In this document: positions 3,598-38,395 of the stretch, one piece after another
Layout of the letters: every line of letters starts with the position of its first letter
Position numbering within the stretch: position 1 is the first letter of the stretch
Virus record (IMG/VR): IMGVR_UViG_3300028536_000024
Span: 1-38,552 of that record
Reading direction: 5' to 3' (one strand)
DNA: 38,552 bases
Source: a virus
Program-made: the position numbers and the translations under genes
Notes under the pieces: model-generated
What the model was told of the DNA's origin: nothing
The model's database searches: none
Seen by the model: only the letters and a program-made list of their open reading frames with translations

Positions 3598-3668
3598 GCA
3601 ACCGGACGCTTTGGAAAACGGCCCCCTCTGAGGAGAGGGTATCCCAGGTTCGATTCCTGGCAGTTGCA
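3598..3668 (+). tRNA. tRNA-like element 3 (71 nt)
   Basis: GCAACCG at 3598-3604 pairs with CAGTTGC at 3661-3667 with one C-A mismatch, with A at 3668. The T-arm is perfect (CCAGG, TTCGATT, CCTGG). The middle arm is CCCTC/GAGGG with a 6-nt loop TGAGGA; a 7-nt loop reading would give a GAG anticodon but breaks a pair. The D-arm region holds TTGG but pairs weakly. Of the three elements this is closest in length to a real tRNA. The short variable loop argues against a leucine tRNA. Bases 3669-3796 show nothing further I can name. Confidence 0.45.
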
Positions 3669-3796
3669 CTGGGCATCAGTAACTCATGGCGCGACGTCCG
3701 TCCTATGAGCGAGTCTGTATAAGACCCTTCATCTTTGATGTGTGATTGACACGCACCTGATTGCTGAGCCAAGAGCCGGCCATCCCGATACCATCG

Positions 3797-3809: not shown

Positions 3810-4040
3810 AAATGTTGTCGTTGCCATAATGATTTTACGCGCAGCATTTTGGTTGCCGGGCTCTGTCCCCGATGTCATATTTATGTGGCGGCGGCGAACG
3901 AGGAGGATGACTGGCTCATTGCCGAAGTCCGGCACCGCATCAAGCGGATGCCGGACAGTGTCACTGGGTGGCACAAGAGCCTCGCGCTCTCTGCTGTTCT
4001 AATTGTGTTGGAGAGGAGAAGACGTGGCCGAATCGAATGA
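3801..4040 (+). CDS. zinc-ribbon protein with C-terminal hydrophobic stretch, 79 aa
   Basis: Starts at ATG 3801 (or 3804). CCRCHND near residue 5 and CPRCH near residue 22 form a zinc-ribbon pair. The C-terminus has a hydrophobic segment (SLALSAVLIVL) followed by RRRRGR, which could be a membrane anchor or an amphipathic helix. The gene overlaps the start of the glycosylase gene by 17 bases, so it probably belongs to the replication transcript. No family is recognised. Confidence 0.65.
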   Translation: MMGKCCRCHNDFTRSILVAGLCPRCHIYVAAANEEDDWLIAEVRHRIKRMPDSVTGWHKSLALSAVLIVLERRRRGRIE

Positions 4041-4989
4041 GACGGTGAAGCAGAATGCGCGGTTGCAGGGTGCGCGATGCGACTTGTGCCCGTTGGCCAA
4101 AGATGGCATCGCAGTGGGCCCCACGCCGCCGTCTGAGAATTTGCGCCTGGTGATTGTGGGTGAGGGACCCGGGCGAGTGGAAGAGAAGATGGGCACCCCG
4201 TTCGTCGGCGCCAGTGGCAAGTTTCTCGATGAGCGGCTTCGGAGAGATGCCAAGATATGGCGCACCGAATGCCACATCACGAATGCCGCCTTGTGTAGAG
4301 GAGAAAGCGATGAAGACAATGAACGTGCCGCGGAGTGTTGCGCGCCCCGTCTCCTCAACGAGTTGGCGGGCCTCTCAAAGAAGGCTCCTATTGTGGCATT
4401 GGGGAAATCAGCTGCGCGCTCTGTCCTGGGAGTACGTAACATTCTTACCAGTCGCGGTTTCATTTGGACCGCTCCGGTTATCGAAGAGAAAGTTGTGAAG
4501 GATGCGTTCAAGCGGGACATTTTGGCCGGCGAGACGTTGCGGGGCCGCCAGAAGCTGACTGGCCGAATTGTTCTCCCATCAATTCATCCGGCGTATGTGC
4601 TCAGGGCGGACACTTGGAAGCCCATCTCTGAGCTAGATTTTCGACGTGTGGGCCGAGTTATTCGAGGTGATGCTCGCGGGGGGCGTTGCGGTGTCGCGGC
4701 ATTAGAAGATGAGTGTGAATATAGTGTTGGAGGGCCGGAGGTTCTCATACCGAATCTAGGCATGAAAGTGAGTTGTGATATCGAGACTGACGGCATCAAG
4801 CCGCTCGAATGTAACATTCTTAGTCTCGGTCTCGCTGATTCTTGGGGCGGTGTTGTGGAGATTTGGCCTTGGCATGATAAATATGCTGAAGAGGTCTCTA
4901 TATTTCTTGCAAGCCGAGACGAGGTCATATTTCACAACGGACAGAATTTCGACTTGTTGGTCTTGGAGAATCATGGTGTCGTATGGTGA
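4024..4989 (+). CDS. family 4 uracil-DNA glycosylase fused to the N-terminal half of a 3'-5' exonuclease domain
   Basis: The GTG at 4024 is chosen because AGGAGA lies 5 bases upstream; product 321 aa. Residues 1-210 are a family 4 glycosylase: GEGPG (47-51), GTPFVGASGKFLD (57-69), HPA (188-190), and the four Fe-S cysteines C19, C22, C91 and C105/C106. Residues about 248-321 are the first half of a PolA-type proofreading domain: Exo I with D252 and E254, Exo II ending at D310. The ORF then stops at TGA (4987-4989) before Exo III, which lies in the ORF at 5072. Uracil removal coupled to phage DNA synthesis is the likely role. Confidence 0.88.
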   Translation: MAESNETVKQNARLQGARCDLCPLAKDGIAVGPTPPSENLRLVIVGEGPGRVEEKMGTPFVGASGKFLDERLRRDAKIWRTECHITNAALCRGESDEDNERAAECCAPRLLNELAGLSKKAPIVALGKSAARSVLGVRNILTSRGFIWTAPVIEEKVVKDAFKRDILAGETLRGRQKLTGRIVLPSIHPAYVLRADTWKPISELDFRRVGRVIRGDARGGRCGVAALEDECEYSVGGPEVLIPNLGMKVSCDIETDGIKPLECNILSLGLADSWGGVVEIWPWHDKYAEEVSIFLASRDEVIFHNGQNFDLLVLENHGVVW

Positions 4990-5075
4990 GATGGCTAGTA
5001 TTTGTGCTTCTGATTGTGGCGTGTGCTCTTGTCGGCACGATCCTTGCGGGGTTTATTTATGAGTCGCTCCGATGA
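4983..5075 (+). CDS. 30-aa single-pass membrane peptide ORF inside the split polymerase
   Basis: The ATG at 4983 overlaps the TGA of the glycosylase-exonuclease ORF, and the TGA at 5073-5075 overlaps the ATG of the polymerase ORF. The product is MVRW, then about 20 hydrophobic residues (LVFVLLIVACALVGTILAGF), then IYESLR: a textbook single membrane helix. No good ribosome site is present, so translation would depend on coupling. It may be a real peptide gene inserted into the polymerase gene, or the coding appearance may be incidental to a spacer that the ribosome bypasses. The overlaps at both ends favour a real gene. Confidence 0.55.
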   Translation: MVRWLVFVLLIVACALVGTILAGFIYESLR

Positions 5076-6589
5076 AGTTTGCCAACTGCCACGATACGCT
5101 TCTCGCCCACCATGCATTTGCTTCCCATCTGCCGCAGCGGCTCGACCATGTAGCTTCTTGTTATACCGACTCAAGGCCGTGGAAGCGGCTATTCAAAGGG
5201 GGAAGCGAGGACGAGAAGGGAAGCACGCCGGACCAGTTGAGCGGGGAGGACCTCTGCAAGTACAACGCTGCGGATGCCCGGTTGACGATGCTGAGTTGGC
5301 AACGGATGCAGAGCGACCTGGAGCCGGAGCGCGCGGTGTATGAGCACGACCAGAAGCTAGCCGCTGTTTGCCGGGAGATGATTCGGGCGGGGATTGGAGT
5401 TGACGAGGAGCGGAAGAACGAGCTCAGCGACCTGCTTGCTGAAAGGTGTGATGAGCTTCGAGACAAGATGCGGCGGATGGTGAATGACCCTCATCTTGTC
5501 CCTGGAAGCCACCGGCAGATTCGGAAGCATCTGTTTGGCACCTTGGGTGCGCGCTTCGTGGCCGTGACTCCCAAAGGGTTGGCTGCCACGAGTAATGAGA
5601 CACTCGAGGGGCTACGGATGGGTGGCAACCAGCAGCATGCTGAGTTTGCGACCGCGCTTCTCACGTGGCGTGTGGCAGACAAGGTAAAGAGTACCTATGT
5701 GGGTGCGATTGGCGGGCCTGGGAAGAAGGGCGTGCATCTTCTTCGCGGAAGGGCGCACTACAATTGGAAGCCGTTCGGGACCGTTAGTGGCCGGCTGTCT
5801 TGTCGGCTTCAGAGTGTGCCGCGCTACAGCAATGAGGCTCCGGAGTCAAGAGTCCGAGAGATATATGTTCCCCGCAAAAACCATACGTTCGTATACTACG
5901 ATGTAAGCCAGGCGGAGATGCGGCTTGCCGCCTACCTCTCCAACGACGCCACCTTCATTGAGGCGTGTCGGGGAGACGTTCATGCCAACAACGCAAAGGC
6001 GGTGTTCCCGGTGGCTGCGCGCATGGGCCTTCTTGACGGCGCGTCGATGAAGGACCCGACGCGCGGCAAGAAGTTCCGCGACATCGCGAAGAACCTGGGG
6101 TTCGCCATCAGCTACTACGCCGAGGCTGAGAAGGTGTTCGCTACGCTGCGGTCGAAGGGGTTCGACGTCAGTTTTCAGGCGGTAACTCTCATCCTGAGCA
6201 AGCTTCGTTCGGCGTATCGCACCTACTATCGATGGGTCAACACCAACCACGCGCGCGTGCAGCAAGTCGGATACATGCGGACGCCGTTCCTTGGCAGGAT
6301 TCGGTGGCTTGGTTGGTATCCAAAGACCACTGAGGTCGCCAACTATCCCATCCAGAGCGGGCTGGCGGACATCATGAACGCGAGGACCATCGAGCTCTCA
6401 GAATCAATAATTGGGCCTTACCTCGTCGCGCAGGTGCATGATGCTTGCATCTATGACGTTCCGAATGATTTACTCAACGCGGCAAAGGAAATAATTTCGG
6501 AGATTTGGTCTCGGCCTATTGACACTGCTGGTGGAAAGCTTATTTTACCTGTAGATTTTAAATACGCGGAAAGATGGTCTGATTTATGA
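5072..6589 (+). CDS. family A DNA polymerase (C-half of exonuclease plus polymerase domain)
   Basis: 505 aa from ATG 5072. Residues 1-75 complete the exonuclease domain begun upstream: HDTLLAHHAF, then Exo III Y64 and D68 (KYNAAD). The polymerase domain has the TGRLS-like GTVSGRLSC (236-244), motif A with D277 (YYDVSQAEMRL), the O-helix R336, K340, F344, Y348, and motif C QVHD with H456 and D457. All catalytic aspartates are present. Phe at the 762-equivalent position implies normal discrimination against dideoxynucleotides. The first polymerase half is in a different frame 82-85 bases upstream, so the enzyme is made as two chains unless recoding joins them. No clear ribosome site precedes it. 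Confidence 0.92.
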   Translation: MKFANCHDTLLAHHAFASHLPQRLDHVASCYTDSRPWKRLFKGGSEDEKGSTPDQLSGEDLCKYNAADARLTMLSWQRMQSDLEPERAVYEHDQKLAAVCREMIRAGIGVDEERKNELSDLLAERCDELRDKMRRMVNDPHLVPGSHRQIRKHLFGTLGARFVAVTPKGLAATSNETLEGLRMGGNQQHAEFATALLTWRVADKVKSTYVGAIGGPGKKGVHLLRGRAHYNWKPFGTVSGRLSCRLQSVPRYSNEAPESRVREIYVPRKNHTFVYYDVSQAEMRLAAYLSNDATFIEACRGDVHANNAKAVFPVAARMGLLDGASMKDPTRGKKFRDIAKNLGFAISYYAEAEKVFATLRSKGFDVSFQAVTLILSKLRSAYRTYYRWVNTNHARVQQVGYMRTPFLGRIRWLGWYPKTTEVANYPIQSGLADIMNARTIELSESIIGPYLVAQVHDACIYDVPNDLLNAAKEIISEIWSRPIDTAGGKLILPVDFKYAERWSDL

Positions 6590-6990
6590 ATATTGATGAG
6601 GAGGCCGTGCTTTTGGAGACTCCGGATGATGTGAGCGTCATCGTCCCCAAGCAGAAACGAAAGAGCAAGGGGCCGCGAAAGACGCCTAAGATGACGAAGC
6701 CGGCGAAGCGGAAAGCTGGGAGTAAACGCGGACCTAAGGGCTGGGCGCCAGAGGACCGGATGCGCAATGGCTCTAAGAAGTTTGGCCTCGCACTTCGCAA
6801 GAAGCGGCTCGAGTTGGGCTGGACGCAGGCGCAGATGGGGATGGAGCTTGGCATCAAGCAGCCGCACATGTGCAACTTGGAGAAAGGGACGTTTGCTCCG
6901 GGCCCCAAGCTTCTTGCACTCATTGAGAAGAAATATCTCAAGCACACGGTGAAGAGTCGTTCGAAGAGGACTCCGAGGAAAGAGGCATGA
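6586..6990 (+). CDS. HTH (XRE-type) DNA-binding protein with a lysine-rich N-terminus, 134 aa
   Basis: Starts in an ATGA overlap with the polymerase stop. Residues 1-20 are acidic, about 20-60 form a Lys/Arg-rich tail, and about 63-115 contain a Cro/CI-type helix-turn-helix (ALRKKRLELGWTQAQMGMELGI, then QPHMCNLEKG). The basic tail resembles those of non-specific DNA binders. It could be a transcription regulator for the late genes that follow; that is inference from position. Its own stop overlaps the next start. Confidence 0.82.
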   Translation: MNIDEEAVLLETPDDVSVIVPKQKRKSKGPRKTPKMTKPAKRKAGSKRGPKGWAPEDRMRNGSKKFGLALRKKRLELGWTQAQMGMELGIKQPHMCNLEKGTFAPGPKLLALIEKKYLKHTVKSRSKRTPRKEA

Positions 6991-7634: not shown

Positions 7635-7952
7635 ATGCCCTACAAGTCCGACGCCCAACGACGTTTCTTCCACGCGGCGGAAGCGCGGGGCGACATCAGC
7701 AAGAAGACAGTCAACGAATGGGACTCGGCCTCAAAAGGCAAGAAGCTCCCGGAGCATAAGGAGAAAAAGACAGTGGCAGACCTAGACCTAGATGAAGGCA
7801 CCGAAGACGGGGCCATCGACAACAAGGGCAAGCACAAGATGCATGGCAAAGATGGCTCGCATCAGGAGAGCCACAAGATGATTGGCGGCGCCAGGAGCCG
7901 CATTCACACCGGCTCCCCCGAGGAGCTCGAAGCTTTCAAGGAAGAGAAGTAG
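7635..7952 (+). CDS. conserved phage protein, MPYKSDAQRRFFHAAEARG type, 105 aa
   Basis: The N-terminus MPYKSDAQRRFF and the following KKTVNEWDSASKGKKLPE match a small protein I recognise from many phage structural or packaging regions. The C-terminal half is highly charged (Lys, His, Asp, Glu) with low complexity. The function is not established. It lies between the two terminase genes. Confidence 0.75.
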   Translation: MPYKSDAQRRFFHAAEARGDISKKTVNEWDSASKGKKLPEHKEKKTVADLDLDEGTEDGAIDNKGKHKMHGKDGSHQESHKMIGGARSRIHTGSPEELEAFKEEK

Positions 7953-31604: not shown

Positions 31605-31984
31605 CGGGGCCCGCTTTTCTCTATCTCTTCTCGAGCTGCGTCTCGTTGTTCCTGAGTCACGAGGCCGGCTTTGGTGAGCGCTGCATCGAGTATGCACCCG
31701 GCGTCGTGAGTTTGCGGTGCAAGTGCTTCTTTATTACGTGACGCCCACGCCGCCGTCCCTTCCCGCCATTGATTACAGAATGGGCAAGACTCGCAAGCCC
31801 CGATGCTTATTGCGGCCCATTCTACTGCCAGCAATGCGCGGAGCATGTTCGGGGCGGCAGCAATGAATAATGATGTAGATTTGTTGTATGCACTACCTAT
31901 AACGCATACATCAGTGCTTGTTTTGCTGATGATTGTCGTGGAGCAGTCCGGAACCGAATCCCACGTCTCTAGCCACGGTTTCAT
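31601..31984 (-). CDS. cysteine-containing protein, 127 aa
   Basis: The start at 31984 overlaps the helicase stop (ATGA). The central part AAAPNMLRALLAVEWAAIS followed by CESCPFC and later CILDAALTKAGL is a pattern seen in small phage proteins of unknown function with a CxxC zinc site. It probably is translated with the helicase. Role unknown. Confidence 0.7.
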   Translation of the reverse strand: MKPWLETWDSVPDCSTTIISKTSTDVCVIGSAYNKSTSLFIAAAPNMLRALLAVEWAAISIGACESCPFCNQWREGTAAWASRNKEALAPQTHDAGCILDAALTKAGLVTQEQRDAAREEIEKSGPR

Positions 31985-33630
31985 AATCCCAACCTCGCGT
32001 ACAAGTCCTTCATGATTGAGCTTTCGTCTTCTCGAAATCCTTCGGCCAAAGCCGTTTCGCCGAACCCGCCGATGCTTTTCTCCAACACATCCAACTTATT
32101 TATCACAACGTCGGCGACCAATTCGTCCGTCGTACCGCGGGCGATGAGGTACTGAATCAGGACGGGGTTTTTTTGGCCGAATCGGTGCAGCCGGGCTTCG
32201 GCTTGGAGGAGCTCGTGGGGCTCGTAGGTGAGCTCAACGAAGACCGCGACGTCGGCGTAAGAGAGGTCGATTCCAGTCGAAGCGGCGTCGATGGTTGCGC
32301 ACAAGAGGCTGGACTCTTCTTTGCGGATTTCATGAAGCGTTCTCGTACGTGCCGCTTGAGAAATGCCTCCGTGAAGAAGCATGCCGCCGCATTCGCACGC
32401 GACGTATTCGGCGACCGCCCGCCGGTAGGTGAAGACCACCACCTTGGCGCCCGCTTGAAGATGCTCATCGATGAGGGGGACCGCGGAGTCTTTGAGCTTG
32501 GCGTCGGCGGCAACTGCGAGGGCCGCACGAAGCGCGCCGCCCTGGGAGTCCGCGGAGAAAGATTGCCCGTTGTGCTTGGAGCCGACGTCGACACGAATCA
32601 CCTGGCGGGTCTTGGCCGGAAGCTCGAGCGCCACGTCGCTCTTCGTCCGGCGGAGCATGAAGTGTTGGAGTCTTGCATTGAGCTCTGGGAGATTGCTCTT
32701 GGAGTCGAACTTCCAGACGGTCTTCTCAGGGGTGACGGCCTCTTTGTAGCCGCCACAATACCGGATGCCGAACGGGAAGAAGTTGCTTCCAAAGCGGCCA
32801 GGGGTGATGGTGTCCAGGATTCCCCAAAGGTCTCGTGGCCGAGAAGTCATGGGGGTTCCACTGAGGCCCCAAACGTAAAGAGCATTTTGGCTTACCTTCT
32901 TGGCGGCTTTCGTTCGCTGCGTCTCCCGGTTCATCAGGTAGTGGCACTCATCGAAGATGACGATTTCGGGAGACCACTTCTGTAGTGTTTCTGCCCATGC
33001 GTGAAGGATGTCGTAGTGACAGATGATGATTTCGTAGGCAGAAAGAGGGAGAGTCTCCTCTTTGACCCCCTTGACGCCTTTGCACTGGTAGACGTTTGCC
33101 TCGTCCGAGGGATGCGCATCGGAGCCCAGCCTCCACTTGGCAAGCTCTCCGCCGTCATGGTCATTGGACCAGACGCCGCGGACGTAGGAGGGGCACACGA
33201 TGAGGGTTCGTTTGGTCGTGACGAAGGAATTCGCCGCGCTGATTGCGACGGCCGTTTTGCCGAGGCCCATGTCGTCGGCGAGGATTCCTCGGCGCACGTT
33301 TTTCAAGAAAGAGACGGCTTGCTTTTGGTAGTCGCGAAGTCGGCTGTCCAATTCGACGAATGCGTTTGAGGCGCAGAATTCATAGACGTCAGCTAGGTCA
33401 ATGCCCCCGAAAGCACTCTCGTTGAGGCCCTTCTCCTTGATTAGAAATTTGACGGCGGCTTCGATAGCGTCCGCTGCCCCGCCGATGCGCTTGCCGTCAA
33501 GCTTGACGCATCCGGGAATGGCGCGCGCCGCAGCGACCATCGCAGGGCTGTAAGAATCATGAGTGAGGGCATATTGAGGCCCGTGAGAAAATTCAAGACC
33601 TGCACCCGGCTCCCAGCGTGATATTTCCAT
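31981..33630 (-). CDS. SNF2-type DEAD/DEAH helicase
   Basis: 549 aa from ATG 33630. Helicase motifs in order: DYQKQAVSFL (Q-like, about 100), Walker A DDMGLGKT (119-126), DECH (227-230), LSGTPM, LRRTKSD, and in the C-terminal lobe STGIDLSYADVAVFVE and EARLHRFGQKNPV (motif VI arginines). The layout is that of SNF2/SMARCAL1-like ATPases that move along duplex DNA and remodel forks. In phages they often accompany a RecB-type nuclease, as here. Predicted promoter at 33639-33666. Confidence 0.92.
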   Translation of the reverse strand: MEISRWEPGAGLEFSHGPQYALTHDSYSPAMVAAARAIPGCVKLDGKRIGGAADAIEAAVKFLIKEKGLNESAFGGIDLADVYEFCASNAFVELDSRLRDYQKQAVSFLKNVRRGILADDMGLGKTAVAISAANSFVTTKRTLIVCPSYVRGVWSNDHDGGELAKWRLGSDAHPSDEANVYQCKGVKGVKEETLPLSAYEIIICHYDILHAWAETLQKWSPEIVIFDECHYLMNRETQRTKAAKKVSQNALYVWGLSGTPMTSRPRDLWGILDTITPGRFGSNFFPFGIRYCGGYKEAVTPEKTVWKFDSKSNLPELNARLQHFMLRRTKSDVALELPAKTRQVIRVDVGSKHNGQSFSADSQGGALRAALAVAADAKLKDSAVPLIDEHLQAGAKVVVFTYRRAVAEYVACECGGMLLHGGISQAARTRTLHEIRKEESSLLCATIDAASTGIDLSYADVAVFVELTYEPHELLQAEARLHRFGQKNPVLIQYLIARGTTDELVADVVINKLDVLEKSIGGFGETALAEGFREDESSIMKDLYARLGL

Positions 33631-33638
33631 TTGAACTC

Positions 33639-33666
33639 AATCTAGGTTGGACCAAATAAATGTCAA
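33639..33666 (-). promoter_or_regulatory. promoter for the helicase gene
   Basis: On the minus strand TTGACA (33666-33661), a 16-bp spacer, then TAGATT (33644-33639), a 4 of 6 match. The expected start, about 7 bases on, is near 33632, only about 2 bases before the ATG at 33630, so the transcript may be leaderless. No ribosome site is visible. Confidence 0.5.
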
Positions 33667-33670
33667 GTAT

Positions 33671-34003
33671 TTATTTTGCTCGATGTTCGCCATCATGCCC
33701 CAACTCGCCAACGCAATTTGTCGAGCGCCCACACCCACTGCATTCGACACGCTCGTGGCACTGGGTGGCCAAACGTCCGTACTCGTCGATGGGCACAAGC
33801 TTGTGGGTCCCATGCTCTTTGAGCCATGCGACATCGATAACGCCTACCCTGTAGTGTGACAGTGTAAAATCTCCGTTGAGGGGCAGAGCAATGGCTTGGG
33901 TCATGGCGATGATTTCATGCATCGCTTCTTCTGCATGATTCGACGAATCGAAATGCATCTTTTCGTCGCAGGTGAGACATTTTATGTACCAATTGCAGCT
34001 CAT
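33671..34003 (-). CDS. cysteine-containing hypothetical protein, 110 aa
   Basis: ATG at 34003 overlaps the previous stop (ATGA). The frame extends upstream but without a good start. The N-terminus has CLTCDEKMHFD (CxxC), the C-terminus CSGCGRSTNC (CxxC) and HDGEH; a zinc site is likely. The middle (FTLSHYRVGVIDVAWLKEH) is beta-rich. No family is recognised. Confidence 0.7.
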   Translation of the reverse strand: MSCNWYIKCLTCDEKMHFDSSNHAEEAMHEIIAMTQAIALPLNGDFTLSHYRVGVIDVAWLKEHGTHKLVPIDEYGRLATQCHERVECSGCGRSTNCVGELGHDGEHRAK

Positions 34004-34203
34004 TTTGCACCTACTTCGTTGAGGATGGGCGCATTGGGCCACCCTGACGACAATATCAATCGTTCGGCACATCGGGCGCAGTAGAAAGCGCCCGAACTCA
34101 CTGCCGTCGTCCATTCTGGTGACTCGTGACCGCACTCCAACTTGATGACAGCCCCGAGCCCCGGTTGAAATCTCATGCCAACTTTGGCTCGCCAGTACAT
34201 CAT
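34000..34203 (-). CDS. zinc-ribbon-like protein, 67 aa
   Basis: ATG at 34203 overlaps the nuclease stop. The product has LECGHESPEW and FYCARCAERL, which together can bind one zinc ion (C-G-H and CxxC). It ends in an ATGA overlap with the next gene. Function unknown. Confidence 0.65.
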   Translation of the reverse strand: MMYWRAKVGMRFQPGLGAVIKLECGHESPEWTTAVSSGAFYCARCAERLILSSGWPNAPILNEVGAK

Positions 34204-35357
34204 TTTGCCCGTAGCTCCTCTTGCTCAACCATCTGAAGCGCTCCGTCCATTCGTAGCCTCTCGAGCACCTTTTCACCCTCTTTTTGGCCGTATGCTTCGA
34301 GGATTGATTTCTTGCTCAAACGTTCGATTTCCTTCGTGACCAACGTGAGGACCTTGCCGTCGGGACGTTCGTAGAGGGCCCCGGCTCGGACCTCTTCGCG
34401 CAACTCGGCGCGCGCCATCTTCGCAAGCCGCTCCAACTCGCCGAGCATTTGGTGAAATCGCCCGGGCTCGATGGGCTCAACCCGCGCCTGGATGCCGCCG
34501 ACCGCTTTTGCGACCAACGCAGATGTGCTCGCGATGAGTTCTCCCTGCTTGGCCGGACAGGAGACGCGCGCCGGGCAGAAGCGGCACTCGGGGCCGGGGC
34601 GTAGGAATCCGGAATCTACGAGGTCGAGCGCGCGGAAGAATGTTTCGTTGAACGGGCCGGTGTCGATGTTCTCGGCATAAATGGTGGTTGGACCATCTGC
34701 TGGTGAATGAAGAATCGCAACGGCGTGAGCGTCGAACAGAAGTGCGAGTGTCTGCATCTGGGGCATTTTGCTCGGGTAGATGTATTCGCTGAAATGGTCG
34801 CGGCCAGTCTTGTGGTCAAGCACTACGCGGAAAATATCGCCGGGGACTTCACCGGCTTCTTCTGGTTTGCCGTACATATTCGCCGCGCGCCAGACCTTTC
34901 GAGGCAGTGCGCGGGCCTCAAGAATGACATCGCCGGTGCCGAAGATGTGCCCCTCACCCTCGTAGGTGTGTGCGCCATCCGCGTCGATGAGCGTTGCATC
35001 TCGCGGGTCTGCTTTGAAGTAGTGTTCGTACCCATCTTCCTCTTCGAGATGAAGGCCCTTGCTGACTTCGACGCCGACGACCTTGAACTGAAGTCCCCAG
35101 GGGTTACCACCTGGCTGCATCCACGCTTGGAGCTCATCATACGCTGCGAGGACGTGCCGCTCCAATTCCTCATTCACCAGGGTGTAGGTGGCCCCGCGCG
35201 TAGTGAGCAGTTTGATCGCCATTGTCTTGTGAAACCGTGTCCCGTAGACAGCTGCTTCTCCAGGCTCATCTCCCTCGAGTTCAACGTCCGAGCTGAATGG
35301 CCGTGGGCACTGCAAAAATAGCGCCGTCTTCGAGGCAGTGATTTGCATCTTGCTCAT
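34200..35357 (-). CDS. Cas4/RecB-like PD-(D/E)XK nuclease with Fe-S cysteine cluster
   Basis: 385 aa from the ATG at 35357, chosen because it overlaps the lipoprotein stop (ATGA); ATG 35369 is an alternative. The nuclease core is GTRFHK (His 43), a GTGDVILE element (D143), then VLDHKTG with D181 and K183. C17 and the cluster C258, C261, C267 (CRFCPARVSC) fit the four-cysteine Fe-S site of Cas4/AddB-type enzymes. It likely trims DNA ends in recombination, next to the helicase and near the Sak4-like gene. Confidence 0.88.
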   Translation of the reverse strand: MSKMQITASKTALFLQCPRPFSSDVELEGDEPGEAAVYGTRFHKTMAIKLLTTRGATYTLVNEELERHVLAAYDELQAWMQPGGNPWGLQFKVVGVEVSKGLHLEEEDGYEHYFKADPRDATLIDADGAHTYEGEGHIFGTGDVILEARALPRKVWRAANMYGKPEEAGEVPGDIFRVVLDHKTGRDHFSEYIYPSKMPQMQTLALLFDAHAVAILHSPADGPTTIYAENIDTGPFNETFFRALDLVDSGFLRPGPECRFCPARVSCPAKQGELIASTSALVAKAVGGIQARVEPIEPGRFHQMLGELERLAKMARAELREEVRAGALYERPDGKVLTLVTKEIERLSKKSILEAYGQKEGEKVLERLRMDGALQMVEQEELRAK

Positions 35358-35500
35358 TTGGTGCACCATTCTGGAAGAGGGGCTGATGGGTAGCAGAGAC
35401 TTGGTTCGCACGGAGAGTGCGCGCTCACGGTTTCGGCGATGGGTGGGTCCGGTGGCAGTGACGCGGTACATGAAAGCAGGAAGAATGCTACGAACTTCAC
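35354..35500 (-). CDS. small lipoprotein, 48 aa
   Basis: GTG at 35500 overlaps the previous stop (GTGA); stop overlaps the nuclease ATG. The N-terminus MKFVAFFLLSC is a lipoprotein signal ending in a lipobox-like LLSC with C11 as the lipidated residue. The mature part is Pro-rich with C31, C36 and C46. A lipoprotein in an early regulatory operon is a common arrangement for superinfection-exclusion proteins, but there is no direct proof. Confidence 0.6.
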   Translation of the reverse strand: MKFVAFFLLSCTASLPPDPPIAETVSAHSPCEPSLCYPSAPLPEWCTK

Positions 35501-35697
35501 GGTAGAACATCTCCATTTATATTGGTCATTTGGGTGCCGCCGGGCAGCGGTAAAAGGGCAGGGAGTTTTCCTGCTTTTTCTAGCCATTTTAACTCAGCCC
35601 GCCTTTTATTTATCATGGCGGGAATTTCGGCGCGCTCAGCCCGAGAACCCGAGAGGTCCTCCAACCTTTGACGATAACGCTTTAAATAGCCTTCCAT
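35497..35697 (-). CDS. hypothetical helical protein, 66 aa
   Basis: The ATG at 35697 overlaps the RHH stop by 1 base (TAATG). The first 45 residues are a charged coiled coil (YLKRYRQRLEDLSGSRAER); the last 20 are Pro/Gly-rich. Probably translationally coupled to the RHH gene; it could be a partner protein. No family is recognised. Confidence 0.65.
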   Translation of the reverse strand: MEGYLKRYRQRLEDLSGSRAERAEIPAMINKRRAELKWLEKAGKLPALLPLPGGTQMTNINGDVLP

Positions 35698-35891
35698 TAA
35701 TCCACGTCCTCGCCGAACGTCTTTTTGAATGCATCTCGAATCCACTGTCGGATAAGGGCGCCCGCCGCCGTACCCTTTCTGTCGGCGACGCGGTGGACTC
35801 CTTCGAGCTCGGAGTCGGAAAGACGGATGGTGAACCGCCGACCAAACCGGCCTTTGGTCCGGACAGTTTGAGCGGTCATTGACTTGGACAT
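35697..35891 (-). CDS. ribbon-helix-helix DNA-binding protein, 64 aa
   Basis: From ATG 35891. After a basic N-terminus, RFTIRLSDSELEGVHRVADRKGTAAGALIRQWIRDAF has the Arc/CopG layout: a short strand (FTIRLS), helix, turn and second helix with hydrophobic spacing. Such dimers bind palindromic operators and often repress their own promoter. It is the first gene of the - operon, and its promoter overlaps the divergent promoter for the VapE-like gene, so auto- and cross-regulation is plausible. Confidence 0.78.
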   Translation of the reverse strand: MSKSMTAQTVRTKGRFGRRFTIRLSDSELEGVHRVADRKGTAAGALIRQWIRDAFKKTFGEDVD

Positions 35892-35907
35892 ATCAGGAGT
35901 GTACAGT
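35879..35907 (+). promoter_or_regulatory. rightward promoter for the VapE-like gene
   Basis: TTGACT at 35879-35884, a 17-bp spacer, and TACAGT at 35902-35907. The expected start is near 35914, at or just before the start codons at 35913-35919, implying a leaderless transcript. Its -10 box overlaps that of the leftward promoter. Confidence 0.6.
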
Positions 35908-35925
35908 GTCTGGTGATGATGTCAA
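35898..35925 (-). promoter_or_regulatory. leftward promoter for the RHH operon
   Basis: On the minus strand TTGACA (35925-35920), a 16-bp spacer and TACACT (35903-35898). The expected start, 7 bases past the -10 box, falls on the A of the RHH start codon (35891), so the transcript may be leaderless. The shared core TGTACA is a short palindrome. Confidence 0.6.
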
Positions 35926-37160
35926 GCACCCCGAGCGGCGAAAATGTTGTGCAGCTTATCCGCGCTAAATTGACAACAAGCAAAGGCGGGCACAACGTCC
36001 GGCCAACACTGGAGAATACAAGGATAATCCTGGAGTTAGACTCTCGATGGGCTGGCGTTTTGGCCTGGGATGAATTCCGCGGGCGCATCTTCAAGTTGAA
36101 GCTGCCGCCATGTGGCGGCGATGTTGGCCCTTGGTGCGACATCGACACGCTGCGCGCCGCCGACTGGATTTCGTCTACCTATAAGGTCGATATCACCAAA
36201 AATATGGTGGCGGATGCCGCGCATTTGGTGGCGGACAAGTGCACGTTCAATCCCCTGGTGGATTGGCTCCGGAGCCTTCGATGGGACGGCGCCCTTCGGA
36301 TTGACCGGCTGTTCATCGACTATTTTGGGGCACCGGACTCTTTTTACATCCGAGAAGTCGGCCGAAATTTGCTCATCGGCGCCGTCAACCGTGCGCTCAC
36401 TCCCGGCATTGCTCTCCATGAGGTGGTCATTCTCGAGGGTCGGCAGGGCGCCGGAAAGAGTCGCGGCGTCAAGGTTCTCTTTGGAAAGGAGTACTTTAGC
36501 GACACGCCCCTAGAGGTAGGTAATAAGGACGCATTCCTTGTGATGCGTGGCAAGTGGTGCATTGAGCTCGGAGAGTTGAGCTCGATGAGCAAGACTGATG
36601 CCAATGCCATGAAGGTTTTCGTGGCATCACCTACAGACTCCTACAGGCGACCGTACGCTCGGGAGCCCGAAGACATTCCGCGTCGGTGTGTATTCATCGG
36701 TACGACCAATGATTCGGAGTACCTACAAGATTCTACAGGTAACCGACGCTGGTTGCCCGTTGAGGTTGGAGAAGTCCGTTGGCACGATATTGAGCGAGAC
36801 CGAACCCAGCTTTGGGCAGAAGCTTTCGAGCGTTCGGGTGAGGATTTTTGGCTTAGCCCCGCTGCACTCTCCCAGGCCCTCGAGATGCGCTCTTCGAAGA
36901 ATGTGGATGACCCGTGGCTCCCCCTGGTCGAAACGTGGCTGGAGGGGCGGCCAGGGCCCGTCACGACCACGGAGCTGCTCCAAGGTGCCGTCGGCAAAGA
37001 CCCGAGCACGGTCACTCGGGGTGACCAGTCACGTGTCGGGAGGATAATCCAATCGCTCGGATGGGCCAAGAGGCAGCTATCGACCGGTAAGCGGGTGTAC
37101 GAAAACAAGCAAACCACTGGCCTCGCGGATGGTGGTTTGAATTTGAAGCTAATAAAATAG
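35916..37160 (+). CDS. VapE/VirE-type primase-helicase
   Basis: 414 aa from the ATG at 35916 (a GTG at 35913 and an ATG at 35919 are also possible). The FNPLVDWLRSLRWDG and ALTPG.ALHEVVILEGRQGAGKS block is the signature of virulence-associated E proteins, a superfamily 3-like helicase used in phage and island replication. The Walker A is GRQGAGKS (near 176-183) and the following IELGELSSM fits Walker B. It begins at a strong promoter with no ribosome site. A role in unwinding or initiating phage replication is likely. Confidence 0.88.
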   Translation: MMSSTPSGENVVQLIRAKLTTSKGGHNVRPTLENTRIILELDSRWAGVLAWDEFRGRIFKLKLPPCGGDVGPWCDIDTLRAADWISSTYKVDITKNMVADAAHLVADKCTFNPLVDWLRSLRWDGALRIDRLFIDYFGAPDSFYIREVGRNLLIGAVNRALTPGIALHEVVILEGRQGAGKSRGVKVLFGKEYFSDTPLEVGNKDAFLVMRGKWCIELGELSSMSKTDANAMKVFVASPTDSYRRPYAREPEDIPRRCVFIGTTNDSEYLQDSTGNRRWLPVEVGEVRWHDIERDRTQLWAEAFERSGEDFWLSPAALSQALEMRSSKNVDDPWLPLVETWLEGRPGPVTTTELLQGAVGKDPSTVTRGDQSRVGRIIQSLGWAKRQLSTGKRVYENKQTTGLADGGLNLKLIK

Positions 37161-37330
37161 CTCTTTTAACTACATAACAACTATAACTACTACTCTATAT
37201 AGAGGGGGGTATATTATATTACTTATAAAGTATAGAGAGGCACTTTTGGGTGTTGGTGGTGGTGAGAGGCCGCCGACCGGTCGGATTCTAGGGTGGGATG
37301 AGGTGTGGAAGAATTTATTTCCAAAAGGCC
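37161..37330 (+). other. AT-rich intergenic region with palindromes, candidate origin or control region
   Basis: Gene-free DNA. Bases 37165-37235 are very rich in A and T (TATATTATATTACTTATAAAG). CTCTATATAGAG at 37193-37204 and CCGACCGGTCGG at 37273-37284 are perfect 12-bp palindromes. The stretch lies between the VapE-like and recombination genes and ends at promoter P3. Such DNA is a typical origin or regulator-binding site; no defined origin boxes can be pointed to. Confidence 0.4.
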
Positions 37331-37358
37331 TTGCGCGTTCATATCGGTGATGTACAGT
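37331..37358 (+). promoter_or_regulatory. promoter P3 (sigma70-like)
   Basis: TTGCGC at 37331-37336, a 16-bp spacer and TACAGT at 37353-37358, followed by G. Same layout as P1 and P2. The leader has a hairpin (TTGTC at 37364-37368 with GACAA at 37376-37380) and the sequence AAAGACGGGACG also found before the gene behind P1. Confidence 0.65.
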
Positions 37359-37406
37359 GAGTCTTGTCGGGACGAGACAACAACTCAAAGACGGGACGGC
37401 AAGAAA

Positions 37407-37649
37407 ATGTTTAAATTTATCAGAAGGTATTTTCGGTTGCGTGAAGTGGCGCGGACCATGAACTTGAACGTCAAGTGGTGGTGGGGCAATGACCGCATCA
37501 TTTACGAGATGGTTGAAGTACGGTGCCGACTTGAGAAGGAGAGGAAGCAGCGGCTCCAGTCGTTGTTTCCCAAGACGGCGAAGATTCTCGATTTCCGCAC
37601 GTTGCGGCAGCCGCTGAAAGCCAAGACGCCGGTGTCTGGGAGCAATTGA
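37407..37649 (+). CDS. hypothetical basic protein, 80 aa
   Basis: ATG at 37407 at the end of the P3 leader. The product is strongly basic (FIRRYFRLREVARTMN, RCRLEKERKQRLQSLFP) with WWW near residue 27; it could contact DNA or RNA. No motif is recognised. Its stop overlaps the Sak4-like start by 1 base. Confidence 0.72.
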   Translation: MFKFIRRYFRLREVARTMNLNVKWWWGNDRIIYEMVEVRCRLEKERKQRLQSLFPKTAKILDFRTLRQPLKAKTPVSGSN

Positions 37650-38395
37650 TGCCGCGCCCCTCGTCTGAGGTCGAAGCGACCGCTTTCCTGAATCTCCTTG
37701 TGCTTGGCACCGCAAAAGCCGGGAAAACGTGCACCGTCATCAGCACGGCGCCAGGGCCTGTCTACGTGATAAATTCGGACAGCCCCACCTCACTGAGGCC
37801 TGTGCTCGAATTTACGGATGACTTCGAATTTGACCTATGCTTGGGGGACAATCTAAGAGACATTGAAAAGTGCATCCACTCGGCGCGTGAGGGAGTAAAG
37901 GCCGGCAAGTACAAGACAGTGGTGTGGGATACCATCACCAAATATTGCCGGCGCGCTGAACAAATCTTCGAGGCCGCTGATGCCGCTGCGAATCGGTCCG
38001 GGGAGGCGAATGGGATGAAGTACATCCCCAAGTTTCAGCGGCACATTCACAATGTTTTGGACAGACTATTTACAATCCCGTGTCATGTGATAGTAAATAG
38101 TCATTGGATAAATGACGAAGGGCGGCAGATTGAGGGGCAAGCGCCGAAGAAGGGTGAGGGCATTGTGCCTATGCTGCCCGGCAAACTCCGGCTTTCAATT
38201 CCTGGGGAGTTCGAAGACGTCATCTTTCTCGAGAATAAGAGAGGAAAGCGAGAGTTCATCACGAGCGACTCTGGAGTGTTCGGCTCTGGGGGCCGCAATC
38301 TACCGAATGTTGAAGTGTTCCCGGGAGACATCAGTGCTCTTTGGGATGCGATGCAGGAACGAATCAATACAACGAAAGACGAGACCAAAAAATGA
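37649..38395 (+). CDS. Sak4-like recombinase ATPase
   Basis: 248 aa from ATG 37649 with GGGAG 6 bases upstream. Walker A is GTAKAGKT near residue 20; VVWDTITKYC is the Walker B region and VIVNSHW a later RecA-fold strand. Short RecA-like proteins of this kind (Sak4 family) act with a phage ssDNA-binding protein in homologous recombination; the next gene fits that partner. Its stop overlaps the next start (ATGA). Confidence 0.85.
   Translation: MPRPSSEVEATAFLNLLVLGTAKAGKTCTVISTAPGPVYVINSDSPTSLRPVLEFTDDFEFDLCLGDNLRDIEKCIHSAREGVKAGKYKTVVWDTITKYCRRAEQIFEAADAAANRSGEANGMKYIPKFQRHIHNVLDRLFTIPCHVIVNSHWINDEGRQIEGQAPKKGEGIVPMLPGKLRLSIPGEFEDVIFLENKRGKREFITSDSGVFGSGGRNLPNVEVFPGDISALWDAMQERINTTKDETKK

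Follow-up and report, generated by a model that had tools for sequence, protein, structure and literature searches.

The family A DNA polymerase gene of the virus considered here (IMG/VR record IMGVR_UViG_3300028536_000024; the whole stretch of 38,552 nucleotides that was analysed is called the window below) is divided between two ORFs, and a small ORF at the point of division overlaps both. We suggest that the enzyme consists of two chains produced through coupled re-initiation, that the small ORF between the two halves is a passenger gene open to exchange, and that the arrangement goes back to a single ancestral split; the probability of this reading is roughly 0.78. The split is conserved, the ORFs coupled to it are unrelated, unsplit ancestor-like relatives exist, the split has a single origin in the tree, and both halves are under selection.

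The features of this region are listed in Table 1; the coordinates of all three ORFs are correct. ORF A starts with the GTG codon at 4024, preceded by GGAGAGGAG, a possible ribosome site. It matches the Pfam UDG domain (2.3e-21) and ends with FHNGQNFDLLVLENHGVVW followed by the stop codon at 4989. The small ORF, referred to below as the slot ORF, starts either with GTG at 4986 or with the neighbouring in-frame ATG at 4983. ORF B is read in a frame different from that of ORF A, begins with MKFANCHDTLLAHH at 5072, and matches Pfam DNA_pol_A (6.3e-40) and phrog_17 DNA polymerase (3e-64). ORF B lacks a consistent ribosome-binding site. The slot peptide of the window is very hydrophobic, with a best 19-residue Kyte-Doolittle mean of 2.84, a hydrophobicity matched by 0.03% of the stop-free 30-codon stretches of the window, and is a strong candidate membrane helix. 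The polymerase operon is directly preceded by a tRNA-Leu gene (anticodon gag, 3598-3669). Replication genes at the opposite end of the record (31981-38392) encode an SNF2-type helicase, a PD-(D/E)XK exonuclease, a VapE-type primase-helicase and a Sak4-like annealing protein.

Table 1. Features of the divided polymerase gene and its surroundings (positions in the window)
Feature	Position	Strand	Description
ORF A (chain A)	4024..4989	+	family-4-like uracil-DNA glycosylase domain, then first exonuclease half (Exo I, Exo II)
UDG domain	4135..4614	+	chain A residues 38-197
Exo I	4777..4785	+	D252-I-E254 of chain A
Exo II	4933..4953	+	HNGQNFD, N305 and D310 of chain A
Slot ORF	4983..5075	+	29-30 residues, single candidate membrane helix in the window
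GTGA overlap	4986..4989	+	ORF A stop / slot ORF start; identical in 5/5 slot-bearing relatives
ATGA overlap	5072..5075	+	slot ORF stop / ORF B start; identical in 5/5 slot-bearing relatives
ORF B (chain B)	5072..6589	+	second exonuclease half (Exo III) and family A polymerase domain
Exo III	5261..5275	+	Y64-N-A-A-D68 of chain B
Polymerase motif A	5900..5917	+	D277-V-S-Q-A-E282 of chain B
Polymerase motif C	6437..6445	+	HDA; D457 kept, usual following Glu replaced by Ala
Downstream helix-turn-helix gene	6586..6990	+	4-base ATGA overlap with ORF B; same coupled operon

The residues of a DEDDy exonuclease (DxE of Exo I, Asn...Asp of Exo II, YxxxD of Exo III) are all present and are divided between the two ORFs. 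Residues D277, R336/K340/F344/Y348 and D457 of chain B align with Taq and correspond to motifs A, B and C of family A polymerases. The motifs thus lie where the first-pass annotation had placed them, Exo I and Exo II at the end of ORF A, Exo III and the polymerase domain from 5072 on. Its statement that all catalytic residues look intact is correct as far as the essential aspartates are concerned, but the glutamate of motif C is an exception: this motif is HDA, not HDE, both in the window and in the split relatives described below.

The glycosylase domain of chain A has the sequence characters of family 4 uracil-DNA glycosylases. It matches their fold and resembles the solved enzymes 1l9g, 1vk2 and 1ui0; cysteines C19, C22, C91 and C105/C106 correspond to the cysteines binding the FeS cluster in family 4, and both motifs of the family, GExPG and HPxxxLR, occur as GEGPG and HPAYVLR. 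Unlike these enzymes, the domain is fused to half an exonuclease, and its motif residues have been lost in two split relatives. In L006 (L006:3815-4759) HPAYVLR is changed to APSFVLR and GEGPG to GEHPT; in L017 (L017:4998-5957) the respective changes are to GPTFAAR and SEECQ. This suggests that glycosylase activity was lost in these two, whereas the glycosylase of the window phage may be active. Because the motif residues are altered in L006 and L017, the design probably does not depend on this activity. The enzyme may be a repair-coupled replicase, as proposed in the first-pass annotation, but the UDG active-site motifs are not retained in these two relatives.

Joined end to end, the products of ORF A and ORF B can be aligned over their length to phage proteins that combine UDG, exonuclease and polymerase in one chain (856, 859, 905 and 804 aa). 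The joint is gapless, and no residues are missing. The break falls into the loop of the exonuclease fold that connects the Exo II helix to the strand behind it. The proteins of Brevundimonas phage vB_BpoS-MaInes and Caudoviricetes sp. vir526 have the same domain order and collinear sequence, but are encoded by one continuous gene, as is the case in many phages. The two adjacent ORFs are thus collinear with one ancestral gene, and their arrangement is conserved across relatives. In comparisons of close relatives the pN/pS ratio is about 0.1-0.3, with a maximum of 0.4, for both chains and for the exonuclease half of each. Since this indicates purifying selection on both chains, both are in use. 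Residues 1-58 of chain B, folded alone from a shallow alignment, are modelled with very low confidence, whereas the remainder matches family A polymerases; chain A modelled alone is also poor (mean pLDDT 48). The low confidence of the N-terminal part of chain B would fit a half-domain needing chain A, although this is only suggestive.

The relatives were found by scanning viral contigs. In the viral collection, the family comprises five further slot-bearing contigs, among them one that duplicates the window at 99%, together with a single contig with an empty joint and several unsplit ones. The gene is split at the same codons in six contigs: the window, L001 (99% identical to it), and L002, L003, L004 and L006, whose ORF B has an identity of 71-75%. 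In the five relatives, ORF A ends with HG-V-(V/S)-W-stop and ORF B begins with MKFAN. One scan of bacterial and archaeal genomes returned only a relative with 25% identity and thus identified neither a host nor a prophage.

The slot ORFs of the four lineages are mutually unrelated and have 29, 56, 86 and 81 codons. The window and L001 encode the membrane peptide (29 codons), L002 a 56-residue cysteine-containing protein, L003 and L004 an 86-residue basic protein, and L006 an 81-residue protein; the proteins of the latter three lineages are hydrophilic and look soluble. When the lineages are compared at the DNA level, the 60 bases flanking the slot on each side are 72-90% identical and the slot itself 22-38%, and the switch is located exactly at the GTGA and ATGA overlaps. 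All four slot ORFs are uninterrupted in the frame connecting the stop of ORF A with the start of ORF B, with a joint chance of about 1e-7 in randomised inserts, and therefore they very probably are real genes. Comparison of the slot ORFs with Pfam and PHROG matched no family, and searches for the slot proteins beyond their own lineages found no relatives. Small accessory genes turn over at other joints of the polymerase operon too. Among the loci compared, a small gene of the same operon (7635-7952 in the window) has a counterpart in L002 only, and none was detected in L003, L004 and L006.

The more distant contig L017 is broken at the same place and has no insert. Its ORF A ends with HGVVW-stop; in this one contig ORF B starts, in the other frame, 17 bases upstream of the end of the ORF A stop codon, so that the two ORFs overlap by 17 bases. 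The first-pass annotation had suggested a search for a continuous glycosylase-exonuclease-polymerase gene, and had taken plain exonuclease sequence at this point in relatives as a sign of a sequencing error. Such a gene indeed exists in seven contigs of the wider family (L018, L033, L035-L039). However, the interval is plain exonuclease sequence in these distant unsplit relatives only, and the break is not an error because all close relatives keep it. In the tree of the joined proteins, all split forms constitute one clade with support 100/99, nested in the unsplit family; L017 is the first branch of this clade, and the insert-bearing forms group together with support 100/100. The simplest history would be that the split arose once and that small genes were then captured and repeatedly replaced at the joint. 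Two unsplit relatives (L018:4989-8504 and L039:3804-7565) have intein-like inserts at two different sites of the polymerase domain: at motif A in L018, with HNH and intein splicing matches, and near the later N-x-P-x-Q-type motif in L039, with no Pfam intein match. The polymerase gene therefore attracts mobile elements.

The replicative polymerase of this phage group would thus consist of two separate chains, the reading that fits best among those offered in the first-pass annotation and that is backed by the alignment, the relatives and the selection. Chain A, with the UDG domain, Exo I and Exo II, and chain B, with Exo III and the polymerase domain, would be translated successively off one mRNA and would assemble to one enzyme, with the break in the exonuclease-fold loop. 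Chain B probably needs ribosomes that terminate at its ATGA and then re-initiate; we infer this dependence because the overlaps are present and ORF B has no clear ribosome site. Coupled translation by way of overlapping start and stop codons has been documented (PMC6728339, PMC10666635), and the slot ORF is coupled to both neighbours, as had been noticed from the window alone. Since the ribosome would have to end at the start of ORF B, only ORFs spanning the distance from the stop of ORF A to this start would be tolerated. The ancestor would have been one fused gene, split once when the reading frame was broken in the loop, where a start codon was at hand. L017 would be the surviving empty state, whereas the other branch would have captured small genes between A and B and swapped them repeatedly, the membrane peptide of the window being one such passenger, presumably with its own function. 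The first-pass annotation had presented the membrane-peptide ORF as what splits the enzyme. Because the relatives carry unrelated, soluble-looking ORFs at the cut, or none, the peptide appears to be an interchangeable passenger and not the cause of the split. One possibility, which we put forward as a doubtful one, is that the cut serves as a capture site for new small genes: a slot ORF would be hard to lose or to frameshift without losing the replicative polymerase, so that one orphan gene after another would be protected by an essential enzyme.

Alternatively, a homing element, such as a homing endonuclease, an intein or an intron, could have left the split and the slot behind when it was later replaced or degraded. 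Other phage genes are known to be split by homing endonucleases (PMC2988022), and the intein-like inserts in the two unsplit relatives point in the same direction. However, these sibling insert sites lie elsewhere in the gene, none of the slot ORFs has an endonuclease, Pfam or PHROG match, and the overlapping frames of the empty form are explained by a simple frame break; we consider such an origin unlikely. A homing endonuclease residing in the slot was rejected, as there is no endonuclease ORF in the gap.

It is rather improbable that the slot product contributes to the work of the polymerase, be it by tethering the enzyme to the membrane or as a subunit needed for assembly. Its exact co-translation with both halves would suit such a role, as would the strong predicted membrane helix in the window phage. 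On the other hand, the other lineages have slot proteins that are unrelated, hydrophilic and different in size, and L017 has none, so that a common role is hard to see. The suggestion that the membrane peptide belongs to the enzyme is not supported for the same reason.

The chance is small that A and B are joined to one chain, be it through recoding (ribosome bypassing or frameshifting), the alternative named in the first-pass annotation, or because a small intron is spliced out. The chains would fit seamlessly, and a tryptophan codon followed by a stop codon ends ORF A in every split relative. However, the intervals have no common sequence and differ in length, the distance from the stop of ORF A to the ATG of ORF B ranging from 82 to 253 bases. 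The codon before this ATG is CCG, TGA, CAG or CAA, none of which matches the take-off codon TGG, and there is no slippery heptamer at the end of ORF A. The Rfam intron search over six sources gave no match. Finally, every interval is an open coupled ORF, which neither an intron nor a bypass needs. Group I or II introns were rejected given the absence of an Rfam match and the mutually unrelated intervals, and bypassing of the T4 gene 60 type given the unlike take-off and landing codons and the absence of a conserved coding gap. In L017, which has no insert, a +1 shift may join A and B.

A sequencing error, an assembly error or a decaying pseudogene, which in a single contig one frame change could imitate, can practically be dismissed, since several separate contigs and lineages are broken at the same site with different long inserts, and both halves are under purifying selection; that this is not simple decay had been stated already from the window, and the same site in five other contigs bears it out.

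Two chains made by coupled re-initiation, with a passenger gene between them, would complete a nearly continuous series from a single essential enzyme to two chains: the fused gene, the split with overlapping frames, and the split with successive unrelated genes. The series reveals a natural split site within a proofreading exonuclease and offers a clean system for asking if re-initiation by itself is enough to keep a gene where it is. It is also a warning that a small ORF within a split gene may be a passenger rather than the cause.

Split phage polymerases are already known; what is new is the position of the split and the exchangeable slot. Among published cases, the one most similar is that of Methylophilales phages MEP401 and MEP402 (OP830906, OP830907), whose polymerase is a family A enzyme encoded, as in the window, by two ORFs with one small orphan ORF in between, an arrangement that occurs in most related viral genomes (PMC10580990). 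The intervening ORF has 77 aa in both phages, and in MEP402 its start forms an ATGA overlap. However, the break of MEP402 lies inside DNA_pol_A, whereas that of the window lies between Exo II and Exo III, and the split is thus not of the MEP401 type. Moreover, MEP401 and MEP402 have no UDG domain and both cultured members have the 77-aa ORF, in contrast to the UDG domain and the unrelated ORFs observed here. In Aeromonas phages 25 and 44RR, the products 43A and 43B of the split gene 43 co-purify and are active (PMC2988022). This is analogous to the present case in that a replicative phage polymerase comes in two pieces and the content of the gap differs between phages. However, 43A/43B is a family B enzyme, and its gap is occupied either by untranslated DNA or by the gene of a homing endonuclease instead of an exactly overlapping small ORF. 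What sets the present family apart is the cut in the exonuclease domain of a UDG-bearing enzyme, the four unrelated coupled ORFs, the empty form and the unsplit outgroup.
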